Of a stretch of 8,233 nt of DNA, positions 1 to 2,426 are shown piece after piece; position 1 is the stretch's first letter, and each line of letters begins with the position of its first letter. The notes under the pieces are model-generated. The model made no database searches. It was not told the DNA's origin and saw nothing but the letters and a program-made list of their open reading frames with translations. Source of the DNA: Clostridia bacterium (lineage in GTDB: Bacteria > Bacillota_A > Clostridia > Christensenellales > UBA1242). The DNA is taken from assembly GCA_017466005.1 (NCBI GenBank), contig JAFTUZ010000086.1, positions 1 to 8,233 on the forward strand, read 5' to 3'. The translations under genes were made by a program, and so were the position numbers.

Positions 1-1170
1 CACATTACCATTTGCATCTACAACAGCAATTTTACAACCAGTTCTGTACGCTGGGTCCACAGCCATAACAGTTTTACCTTTTAGTGGTGGTTGCATTAAA
101 AGTGGTTTTAAATTACTTTCAAACATTTTAATTGCTTGCTCGTCCGCTGTGTCGGTAAGCATACTTCTTAACTCTCTTTCCAAACTTGGGTTAAGTAAGC
201 GGTCATAGCCATCAATAACTGCTTTTGTAACTATTTTTCTAGCACTCATATCAGCCAAAAGTTCAACTTCTTTTTTAGTTTTCGCTTTTGGTTTTTCAGC
301 ACTTACCTGCTCATTTTTGCTACTTTCTTGTTGTTTTTTGTCGTTTTCTGCATCTTTTTGTGGTTCTACATAAATTTCATCTTGTGGTATTTCTTCTGTA
401 CCTTTTGCAAATTGTTTACAAAGTAAAGTAAGCACTTCAAAACGGGTTTTTTCATCTAAATTAATTTCCGCTTTTATAACACCTTCTTTTTCACCACGGT
501 TAATTGCAAGTATGCGGTGGCTAGGCATAGTTTTAATATTTTCACAATATTCTTTGTATGTTTCATAAACTTTACGTTCATCTTTTTCAGCCACCCAAGC
601 AGTTTTCATTTTTGCTTTATTAAAGTATATATCACGCAATGCTTTTCTTGCATTAGGTTCGTCTGCCACAATTTCGGCAATAATATCACTAGCACCTTGC
701 AATGCTTGTTCTACATTTTCTATACCCTTTTCAGCATCTATATATTTTTCTGCTTCGGCAACAACATTAAGATTTTTATCTTGCCACAAAAGCGCATCTG
801 CAAGTGGTTGCAAGCCAGCAGCAATAGCAACCGATGCTCTGGTTTTTCTTTTTGGGCGGAACGGACGATAAATATCTTCAACTTCGGTAACAGTTGTTGC
901 ATCATCTATTTGTTTTTTAATTTCATCTGTTAAATTACCTTGTTCAGTTAAAAGTTTAACAACTTCTTCTTTACGTTTATCCAAATTTCTAAGTTGATTT
1001 AACGAATCTGCAAAATCTCTTATAGTTTGGTCATCACAACTTCCGTGCATTTCTTTTCTATATCTTGCTATAAATGGCACGGTACAACCTTCATCTAATA
1101 AGGCAATAATGTTTTCACAATAAGATTCTTTTATTCCAAATTTTTGTGATAATACGGTTGGAATGTTCAT
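1..1170 (-). CDS. tex: Tex family transcription accessory protein, N-terminal half (cut by window edge)
   Basis: Reading leftward from ATG at 1168-1170 gives 390 codons open to base 1; the C-terminal part lies outside the window. The start MNIPTVLSQKFGIKE, then VPFIARYRKEMHG (about residues 30-45), DIYRPFRPKRKTRA and MPSHRILAINRGEKEG (from residue 215) are the hallmarks of the Tex N-terminal region. AVDPAYRTGCK (Asp372) opens the YqgF/RNase H-like domain. In the family, helix-hairpin-helix and S1 RNA-binding domains follow; they are not visible here. Tex is a conserved cytoplasmic nucleic-acid-binding protein linked to transcription and, in pathogens, to toxin expression. An AAAAAGGAAA ribosome site about 8 bases upstream supports the start. 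Odd feature: residues 259-300 form a Lys/Glu/Gln/Ser-rich, probably disordered linker that seems longer than in typical homologues. A leader of about 150 bases containing the cloverleaf at 1231-1314 is inferred from the promoter candidate at 1331-1359. Confidence 0.95.
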   Translation of the reverse strand, partial: MNIPTVLSQKFGIKESYCENIIALLDEGCTVPFIARYRKEMHGSCDDQTIRDFADSLNQLRNLDKRKEEVVKLLTEQGNLTDEIKKQIDDATTVTEVEDIYRPFRPKRKTRASVAIAAGLQPLADALLWQDKNLNVVAEAEKYIDAEKGIENVEQALQGASDIIAEIVADEPNARKALRDIYFNKAKMKTAWVAEKDERKVYETYKEYCENIKTMPSHRILAINRGEKEGVIKAEINLDEKTRFEVLTLLCKQFAKGTEEIPQDEIYVEPQKDAENDKKQQESSKNEQVSAEKPKAKTKKEVELLADMSARKIVTKAVIDGYDRLLNPSLERELRSMLTDTADEQAIKMFESNLKPLLMQPPLKGKTVMAVDPAYRTGCKIAVVDANGNV

Positions 1171-1230
1171 AGTTAATTTCCTTTTTGCATATAAGATTAG
1201 TTTAAAGCTTTGTTTACCTTTTAATTGCTT

Positions 1231-1314
1231 TGGGCAACGCTTTGCAAAACCAAAACTGGTTTTGCGGTTTGCGCAAAGGCAAACCTGCCCGCCCCTGCGG
1301 GCAAGCGTTGCCCA
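1231..1314. repeat. Compact GC-rich cloverleaf (four-way junction) inverted-repeat element
   Basis: An outer perfect 12-bp stem pairs TGGGCAACGCTT (1231-1242) with AAGCGTTGCCCA (1303-1314). It encloses three perfect hairpins packed end to end: 1244-1252 with 1257-1265 (9 bp, loop AAAC), 1266-1272 with 1279-1285 (7 bp, 6-base loop) and 1287-1292 with 1297-1302 (6 bp, loop CCCT). Only bases 1243 and 1286 are unpaired between arms. G+C is 49/84 (58%), far above the surroundings. No T-run follows on either strand, so it is not an intrinsic terminator, and it lacks tRNA arm lengths and the GGTTC signature. It lies between the tex promoter candidate and the tex start codon, and upstream of the DegV promoter. 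It could be a small non-autonomous mobile palindromic element, a structured RNA leader of tex, or a DNA cruciform. The structure is seen; the function is unknown. Confidence 0.8.
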
Positions 1315-1330
1315 CCTTAAACCAAGATAT

Positions 1331-1359
1331 ATTTTAGCAAAAACCAACAAAAAAAGCAA
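1331..1359 (-). promoter_or_regulatory. Candidate sigma-A promoter for tex
   Basis: On the minus strand TTGCTT (1354-1359) is separated by 17 bases from TAAAAT (1331-1336), with a TGC extended -10 directly before the -10 hexamer. Transcription would start near 1322-1325, giving a leader of roughly 150 bases that includes the cloverleaf. The TTTGCTAAAAT block closely resembles TTTGCTAAACT in the promoter candidate before the HD gene. Not experimentally supported. Confidence 0.5.
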
Positions 1360-1421
1360 CTAAAACTACACATTCTACCACTTCTGTATATATTCTTGAT
1401 AATGCAACAAACTAATATTAC

Positions 1422-1451
1422 TTGACTTTTTTGCCCCAAAAATGCAATAAT
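1422..1451 (+). promoter_or_regulatory. Candidate sigma-A promoter for the DegV gene
   Basis: TTGACT (1422-1427), an 18-base spacer and AATAAT (1446-1451), with TG at 1443-1444 forming an extended -10. Both hexamers match consensus at five of six positions. A 20-bp near-palindrome, TTAAATTAA (1451-1459) and TTAATTTAA (1462-1470) around AC, overlaps the presumed start-site region and could be an operator or merely AT-rich sequence. The leader to the ATG would be about 105 bases. The rest of the 1171-1562 intergenic region is AT-rich and I see no gene in it. Confidence 0.55.
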
Positions 1452-1562
1452 TAAATTAAACTTAATTTAAAGTTTAACCTAAAAATTAAAAGTGAAACTT
1501 ATTTATTGCTTTTAAAATTTTGCCCAGTTATCGCTTAAAACAAAGAAAAAGGAATTAAATTT

Positions 1563-2426
1563 ATGAAAATTAAAATTACAGCAGATTGTACTTGCGATTT
1601 AACACAAGATATGGTTAAAAATTTAAACGTTGGTATAAAACCAGTTAATATAATAATGAATGATAAAGAATATTTAGATGGTGTAACCATAACTTTACCA
1701 GAACTTTTTAAAATGTTTAAAGAAACTGGTCAACTTCCAAGAACTTCGGCTTGCAACCCAGTAGAATATGAAGAGTTTTTTAACGAACAACTTAAATCAG
1801 ATGGTGGCTATGATGCAATAATTCATTTCAGTTTATCTTCGGGCATTTCTTGCTTAAACCAAAACGCAAAAGTTGCCTCTCAAGCATTTGATAACAAAGT
1901 TTGGGTTATAGATTCTCAAACACTTTCCACAGCAATAGCACTTCAAATTTTTTATGCACACGAATTAATACAAAAAGGTTTATCTGTGCAAGAAATTGTT
2001 GATAAAATAGAAGCCAGAAAAACTAACGCACAAGCATCTTTTGTTATTGATACTCTTAAATTTTTGTATAAAGGTGGCCGTTGCAGTGCCCTTTCTATGT
2101 TTGGTGCAAACATTTTAGGCATAAAACCAAGTATTATTGTAAAAGATGGTAAAATGGGTGTAGGTAAAAAGTTTAGGGGAAAATACGATAAAGTTGTGCT
2201 TGAATATGTTGATTATGTTTTAGAAACATATAAAAACCCCGACCGTAAACGTGTTTTTATAACTTACACCACATTAGATAAGCCAGAAATTATAGACCAA
2301 ATAAAAGCAAAATTGCAAGGTAAATTTGATGAAATTTTAGTTACCACCGCAGGTTGTACAATTGGTAGCCACTGCGGACCAAACACTTTAGGTGTATTAT
2401 TTTACACCGATGGTAATCAAGAATAG
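1563..2426 (+). CDS. DegV/FakB family fatty-acid-binding protein
   Basis: The 287-residue length is normal for the DegV family, whose members bind a long-chain fatty acid and, as FakB, present it to the kinase FakA for phosphorylation and entry into phospholipid synthesis. Visible family signatures are KITADCTCDL at the N-terminus, the TS motif in RTSACNP (61-66), SLSSGIS (90-96), VIDSQTLST (115-123), DTLKFLYKGGR (163-173), GIKPSI (186-191) and HCGPNTLGV (270-278). In studied FakB proteins the carboxylate is held by a Thr/Ser of the TS motif, a Ser of the SxSSG loop and a C-terminal His; all three regions are present (His270 the likely His). There is no signal peptide, so the protein is cytoplasmic. 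AAAAAGG (1546-1552), 10 bases before ATG, sets the start. It has its own promoter candidate and a terminator overlapping its stop, so it looks monocistronic. No fakA is seen in the window. The exact ligand cannot be told from sequence. Confidence 0.93.
   Translation: MKIKITADCTCDLTQDMVKNLNVGIKPVNIIMNDKEYLDGVTITLPELFKMFKETGQLPRTSACNPVEYEEFFNEQLKSDGGYDAIIHFSLSSGISCLNQNAKVASQAFDNKVWVIDSQTLSTAIALQIFYAHELIQKGLSVQEIVDKIEARKTNAQASFVIDTLKFLYKGGRCSALSMFGANILGIKPSIIVKDGKMGVGKKFRGKYDKVVLEYVDYVLETYKNPDRKRVFITYTTLDKPEIIDQIKAKLQGKFDEILVTTAGCTIGSHCGPNTLGVLFYTDGNQE

Follow-up and report, generated by a model that had tools for sequence, protein, structure and literature searches.

The cloverleaf-forming sequence upstream of a putative tex gene in a Clostridia bacterium is, in our judgement and with somewhat better than even confidence, a copy of a dispersed family of DNA elements that is defined by its shape, is probably non-autonomous and mobile, and has here landed in the tex leader. 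The sequence lies in an 8,233-nucleotide stretch of DNA (contig JAFTUZ010000086.1 of assembly GCA_017466005.1, hereafter the window), where it had been pointed out in an initial annotation made from the letters alone.

At positions 1231–1314 of the window we found a near-gapless cloverleaf fold with a minimum free energy (MFE) of −56.2 kcal/mol (z −6.97), an energy reached by none of 200 dinucleotide shuffles of the element (0/200; mean −30.68 kcal/mol, sd 3.66). The MFE form has an 11-bp outer stem and hairpins of 9, 7 and 7 bp, with two unpaired bases at the junction (Table 1). The initial annotation had described four perfect stems of 12, 9, 7 and 6 bp with two junction bases in 84 bases, which is the same fold with A1303 paired to 1242 in the outer stem instead of within the last hairpin, and its figure of 58% G+C was also recovered (0.58 for 1228–1317). 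Such folds were sought with a sequence-independent descriptor that required 7 bp or more in the outer stem and 5 bp or more in each hairpin, which had to be perfect and have a loop of 3–7 nt, and that allowed up to 8 unpaired bases at the junction. This descriptor found one cloverleaf in the window, that at 1231–1314, and no three-arm cloverleaf in either 300 first-order Markov shuffles of the window or eight shuffles of the DNA fetched from the related genome G088 (7.32 Mb); 4 of 10,200 random sequences having the elements' own dinucleotides passed it. The energy shuffles and the empty shuffled DNA together thus ruled out a chance origin of the fold, and the arrangement is as non-random as had been supposed.

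Table 1. Features of the window around the cloverleaf (strand given as. where none applies)
Feature	Position	Strand	Remarks
tex, N-terminal part in the window	1..1170	-	putative, name from the first sequence reading; start 60 bp left of the element
Outer (closing) stem, left arm	1231..1241	.	TGGGCAACGCT; one more pair (1242 with 1303) in the 12-bp form
Unpaired junction bases TT of the MFE form	1242..1243	.	from the fold
Hairpin arm 1	1244..1265	.	9 bp, 4-nt loop: GCAAAACCA aaac TGGTTTTGC
Hairpin arm 2	1266..1285	.	7 bp, 6-nt loop: GGTTTGC gcaaag GCAAACC
Hairpin arm 3	1286..1303	.	7 bp, 4-nt loop: TGCCCGC ccct GCGGGCA
Outer (closing) stem, right arm	1304..1314	.	AGCGTTGCCCA
Possible tex promoter	1331..1359	-	TTGCTT, 17 nt ending in TGC, TAAAAT; picked by eye, absent from the promoter-scan list
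degV-family gene, divergent from tex	1563..2426	+	start 248 bp right of the element

Despite its outline the element was not a tRNA, as already stated from the sequence: ARAGORN reported none in the window. Rfam gave nothing approaching a gathering score over window positions 1000–1600 and no family covering an element at 20 loci tested, so that identity with a tRNA or a known Rfam RNA was rejected for the window and those 20 loci, at the level of above-threshold matches over an element. Close to one cloverleaf, on the minus strand of L220:1258–1412 (G165), Rfam reported an L10_leader at 45.3 bits against a gathering score of 44.

Using covariance models together with the descriptor, we obtained 33 further three-arm cloverleaves of 67–102 bp at other loci in seven related genomes of about 1 Mb. 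The initial annotation had proposed, as one option, a dispersed miniature element; its dispersed nature fits these finds, and its mobility we regard as probable. Including the window copy, 34 elements were tabulated (G088, 16; G142, 6; G165, 4; G107, 3; G199, 2; G015, 1; G121, 1), and carriers overall comprise these seven genomes plus G070, whose element has a longer arm and fails the descriptor. When the relatives were searched by plain blastn, the window element gave short matches only, two of which, in G142, lie close to cloverleaves found later. The window element by itself was used to build a first covariance model (R1), which gave three matches in G088 and one in G107 over the nine-genome genus to which the closest relative, G001, belongs; all four were cloverleaves with differing arms, two of them at one locus common to G088 and G107. 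Over 197 genomes of the family, at E ≤0.05, R1 found G088 and G107 only, with filters that also dropped the best G088 match. A second model (R2) was built from three sequences at two loci (L076, L077 and L078), excluding the window, and it scored the window element at 33.4 bits, with a rough E-value of 1.7e-5 over 39 kb. R2 gave 25 rows representing 16 places in G088 and six rows representing four places in G107, and none in the other seven genomes of the genus; over 396 genomes of the order it gave 0 matches, in what was a weak test since at most 11 candidates were scored per listed genome.

The descriptor, applied to 915,425 bp of G088, found 15 three-arm cloverleaves, all of them family members, and none in a shuffle, along with ten two-arm structures, mostly AT-rich, against one in the shuffle. 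Among the other loci retrieved it detected two elements, both from G142, and it found no cloverleaf in the 142,940 bp of contigs that had been retrieved from G107 by position. A third model (R3), made from 14 sequences that included the window and one G142 element, which both match by construction, was positive in five of the 197 family genomes and in six of 38 chosen genomes, the latter being no random sample and including three known carriers; it led to additional cloverleaves in G142, G165, G199, G121, G015 and G070. G001 had no match by R1, R2 or R3. With regards to all these counts it should be kept in mind that the relatives are draft assemblies, that model E-values are rough and that searches across more than 40 genomes miss weak matches. 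Left out of the 34 were L087 (G088:C71, imperfect closing stem), L076 (same locus as L077), L231 (G070, long additional insert in one arm), L074 (G001, AT-rich, unrelated), the weak match at L197:11749 and duplicate reports from the other strand or frame (L093, L222, L223, L235 and L239); a MAFFT alignment of the first four elements placed the arms wrongly and no model was built from it. The structure at L074:1062–1146 is itself a gapless three-arm cloverleaf of 13/12/6/6 bp with 0 unpaired bases, AT-rich, overlapping the end of an ORF and having no evident family likeness.

All 34 elements have exactly three arms, with lengths of 67–102 bp (median 84), closing stems of 7–16 bp and 0–9 unpaired junction bases. 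The window copy, at 11/9/7/7 with two unpaired bases, falls within this geometry (7 bp or more in the closing stem, perfect pairing in all three hairpins, no more than 9 unpaired bases). In 26 of the 34 a GGGCTT near the left end is matched by AAGCCC near the right end, and the shorter pair GCTT and AAGC is found at these places in 27, including the window, and is absent in seven. The window copy lacks the longer family motif, having AACGCTT/AAGCGTT and not GGGGCTT/AAGCCCC, with only GCTT/AAGC in common. Outside this motif most pair positions show all four Watson–Crick types among the 34 elements. Because most arms are unrelated, relatedness between genera is judged by geometry and GCTT/AAGC, and convergence is possible; we infer that the window copy shares common descent with the others rather than having converged onto one shape with them.

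We also looked for compensatory changes in the stems, and the covariation was very strong. The alignment comprised 36 matches aligned by R2 from 19 loci, picked by model score alone and excluding the window, with both strands of many loci present so that rows are not independent. In it, 253 cells were changed on both sides of a pair against 10 changed on one side, double changes occurred in 32 of 34 pairs, and 97.8% of cells were paired, compared with 76.7% upon shuffling and at most 58.9% with slid partners; no shuffle attained the observed values. G-T pairs were scarce, with 7 of 786 in the first 22 elements (19 model-found loci, the window and two G142 elements) and 7 of 1162 in all 34, a count biased low because elements were chosen with a perfect-pair descriptor, versus 30 of 494 in 23 G088 tRNAs (Fisher P 1e-10 for 7 of 1162). 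As the evolution of RNA ordinarily proceeds via G-U, this scarcity points to a constraint or process acting at the level of DNA or on both strands.

As read from the sequence, the element appears to sit inside the tex 5′ leader, just downstream of the candidate tex promoter, and with that promoter directly upstream on the tex strand it is probably transcribed. The closest relative (L001 in G001) has a DegV protein 88% identical to that of the window, and tex is present in the degV locus in seven relatives of the nine-genome genus (L002, L037, L038, L040, L041, L042 and L044), with an extra stretch of at least 1 kb between the two genes in L040 and L042. At the tex–degV site of these seven relatives the descriptor found no cloverleaf (among matches with G+C above 0.28), nor did R2 at that of six of them, L040 aside; in L002 the gap between the genes is 193 bp, about half of the 392 bp in the window. 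In G001, where the intergene lies at a contig end, another dispersed composite palindrome occupies the spot (L001:1–260). Further along the window, the protein encoded at window:2582–3346, flanked by degV and by a long ORF whose start resembles that of a lipoprotein, shows below-cut-off similarity to the Cas3'' HD and HDIG families.

The best surviving alternative, which we nonetheless consider unlikely, is that the cloverleaf is a structured RNA, whether a leader that regulates tex in cis, a small RNA, or a terminator working in both directions or mRNA stabiliser, with selection on the folded transcript. Its extreme stability, probable transcription and strong covariation would all be in keeping with this, and were both strands required to fold, G-U pairs would be avoided too. 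One-sided changes are, however, nearly absent, unlike in usual RNA covariation, and as no cloverleaf was found at this site in the seven relatives we rejected a tex cis-regulatory RNA. That proposal, made in the initial annotation for tex or degV, also finds no support in the family copies, which adjoin various genes in several orientations, or in the scarcity of G-T pairs and one-sided changes, which suggests a DNA-level or strand-symmetric constraint. With regards to a terminator role, a T-rich tail was found on one side in 17 of the 34 elements and on both sides in 0/34; the T-tracts thereby present at 17 of 68 ends (25%) were barely enriched over the 21.7% of nearby spots having them, so the family does not resemble terminators. 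In the window no T-tract directly follows the stem on either side, and the sole terminator-like site within 1100–1600 is an alternative hairpin inside the cloverleaf, all in agreement with the early statement that the element is no intrinsic terminator. We rejected an intrinsic or bidirectional terminator for want of clear T-tract enrichment, yet convergent gaps were somewhat over-represented, as a terminator role predicts: 23 items were examined, and of the 17 with called genes at both flanks 8 lay between convergent genes versus 74 of 332 gaps in G088. The position was nevertheless inconsistent, the 11 G088 copies with genes on both sides comprising four convergent, six co-directional and one divergent, so no single gene context characterises them.

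The reading as a mobile, shape-defined family draws most directly on how the copies are distributed. Three pairs are near-identical inside different flanks (L078/L080, 98.6% over 74 bp; L077/L082, 92% over 88 bp; L084/L086, 91% over 86 bp), with similarity that stops close to the closing stem, while other pairs are similar beyond the cloverleaf (L080/L084, 144 bp; L082/L091, 117 bp). A left flank common to four G088 loci (C3, C36, C47 and C77; 72–90%) precedes a cloverleaf whose orientation at C3 and C36 is the reverse of that at C47 and C77. Across these orientation groups the cores are 77–94% identical with one of them inverted versus 63–65% in the same sense, and within the groups they are 83–87% identical in the same sense. 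At L092:224–300 (G088:C77) we noted, adjoining a complete element, a seemingly truncated common flank with only the first cloverleaf bases, perhaps a deletion derivative.

Presence of the element also varies between orthologous sites. One locus is filled in both G088 and G107, and two sites filled in G088 are without element in G107; the differing DNA at these empty sites exceeds the element (485 versus 103 bp in one), so that deletion in G107 is a possible cause. Around the common cloverleaf about 420 bp are near-identical (L076:122–540 versus L077) within an aligned stretch that as a whole is 88% identical, for which recent transfer, unusual conservation and metagenome contig cross-binning are candidate explanations. 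Twelve of 15 G088 copies lie outside naive ORFs and three overlap short ones (80–113 aa). An open frame spans the element and 60 bp on either side in 13 of the 34, mostly GC-rich and outside G088, which makes non-coding status uncertain for those, and that all copies are non-coding is therefore a supposition. Two very GC-rich cloverleaves in G142 (L197:2473–2563 and L196:2907–3008) overlap naive ORFs of 1307 and 150 aa and may be translated sequence or may mislead gene calling. No target-site duplication abutted 29 of the 34 elements, and in the other five it was 2 bp at most, although the true ends of the elements may lie beyond the closing stem. A phage or plasmid origin was rejected, as the window element gave just short borderline matches (E 0.8–0.9) and L078 none; pattern matches in viral contigs numbered 0, 0, 0, 1 and 0, the single one (L241) not being a cloverleaf.

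The same distribution bears on a second alternative, that these are sites for a chromosome-organising or repair protein which binds four-way junctions or cruciforms, with DNA shape selected and no mobility involved. Constant shape with variable sequence, low G-T content, a mostly intergenic location in G088 and seeming indifference to orientation would each be expected of such sites. Near-identical copies in different flanks imply copying, however, and the patchy presence, with 16 tabulated in G088 but no model match in G001 or in most of the family genomes searched, is unlike that of an essential architectural site; we therefore hold this explanation to be improbable.

More improbable still is a REP/REPIN-type element moved by a tyrosine transposase (Y1, HUH) of the REP-associated kind, even if the general lifestyle of palindromic, dispersed, mostly extragenic sequences with a predicted single-strand fold is the same (PMC3116915). 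REP and REPIN sequences resemble the cloverleaves in being short palindromes with many dispersed copies that are believed to be non-autonomous and to adopt a fold in single-stranded DNA or in RNA (PMC3116915, PMC3733652), but they carry a GTAG or CGTC tag, the GTAG group being thought to depend on Y1 transposases (PMC3116915, PMC3733652), and REPs are described as palindromes of 20–40 bp (PMC3733652), whereas the cloverleaves have three hairpins on one closing stem and arm sequences that vary across copies. At the ends of the elements GTAG was found in 0 of 34 (3.4% in nearby control DNA) and CGTC in 1 of 34 (2.3%), thus not above nearby DNA. A Y1 transposase gene (PF01797) was absent from the draft genomes of the five carriers tested (G088, G107, G142, G165 and G199), and with both tag and gene missing REP/RAYT identity was rejected. 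The only PF01797 match, L240 (G001:C2:115933–116247), has three internal stops and resides in G001, in which no family member was found. It belongs to the IS200/IS605 type, and some 600 bp separate it from a copy of the composite palindromic repeat of that genome (G001:C2:115103–115325), of which it is possibly the former mobiliser.

That composite repeat (L001:1–260) is like the window element in being a dispersed nested palindrome in the same tex–degV intergene, there in the closest relative, but it is longer and modular and occurs in a genome without any R1, R2 or R3 match; it has 69 matches in G001 and two weak ones in G088, the only ones among the other eight genomes of the genus.

Least credible of all is that template switching alone, as a mutational by-product without dedicated mobility or selection, built and perfected these nested palindromes, for although template switching between inverted-repeat arms homogenises the arms and inverts the spacer (PMC8604942) and would thereby explain perfect arms, paired changes, the lack of G-T pairs and inverted cores, it leaves unexplained the three arms in 34 of 34 elements, the pairing of GGGCTT with AAGCCC in 26 of them and the near-identical copies at different loci, which are most simply read as the outcome of copying an element that is recognised by its shape.

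For the preferred reading, that of a shape-defined and probably mobile family, a mechanism can be envisaged, in which actual movement, the single-stranded state, the enzyme and template switching are inferred. The family shape would be a closing stem, mostly with GCTT/AAGC near the junction, followed by three perfect hairpins set almost without gaps. Such an element would fold into the cloverleaf when single-stranded, as at a replication fork, or when extruded as a cruciform, and a structure-specific enzyme of the host or of a mobile element, acting in trans, would take the cloverleaf shape as its substrate. Recognition of shape in trans could then bring about spread in either orientation, while template switching between the arms would keep the stems perfect and allow their sequences to diverge, both partners of a pair changing together. 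As for the window copy, it would have inserted into the short leader of tex, immediately after the presumed promoter of that gene. Taken to its fullest extent, and only tentatively, since we think it rather less probable than the core reading, this would amount to a kind of mobile DNA whose sole recognition signal is the cloverleaf shape, formed by a folded single strand or a cruciform, with four helices meeting almost without gaps; only shape would be selected, arms would drift to unrelated sequence, pairs would change two bases at once by template switching, and a putative structure-reading enzyme would copy the element in either orientation in these reduced Clostridia.

Other known systems share some of these traits. 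Bacterial MITEs and enterobacterial repeat units are likewise dispersed inverted-repeat elements of about 100 bp without genes (PMC10969869, PMC2759123). The cloverleaves differ from MITEs in lacking a target-site duplication and in having geometry conserved more than sequence, and no parent transposon was found for them in a search confined to PF01797. The attC sites of integrons are recognised by their folded single-strand shape and show weak sequence conservation; they are located in gene-cassette arrays together with the IntI integrase and have extrahelical bases. The cloverleaves are instead scattered and nearly fully paired, and attC offers an analogy of how such an element could work. 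Double-hairpin and repetitive hairpin-forming elements of mitochondria are similarly dispersed, intergenic, divergent between relatives and scattered in distribution; they belong to organelle genomes, however, and a three-arm closing-stem plan is not described for them in the abstract consulted (PMC2800124). Both attC sites and the mitochondrial elements should be seen as analogies of behaviour and not as kin. With regards to cloverleaf or multibranched dispersed repeats as such, no family of this kind appeared in the titles and opening lines of abstracts searched, a scope lying outside subscription papers and preprints, and the words cloverleaf and nested are absent from the main text of a tree-of-life survey of inverted repeats (PMC13155455).

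REP-type repeats are, in the literature consulted, classed into families by sequence features such as the end tag. A geometry that is conserved while sequence is almost free is the expected signature if the shape of a nucleic acid is itself recognised and copied, and the family offers dozens of natural sequences that realise a single DNA fold, as well as a clear target in the hunt for a structure-specific enzyme. Covariation, which is commonly taken as a sign of RNA function, may here stem from the copying of arms at the level of DNA. Some Clostridia with small genomes carry short, scattered elements of widely differing sequence that can each adopt a tight three-armed cloverleaf, and the one before tex looks like a member of this family.
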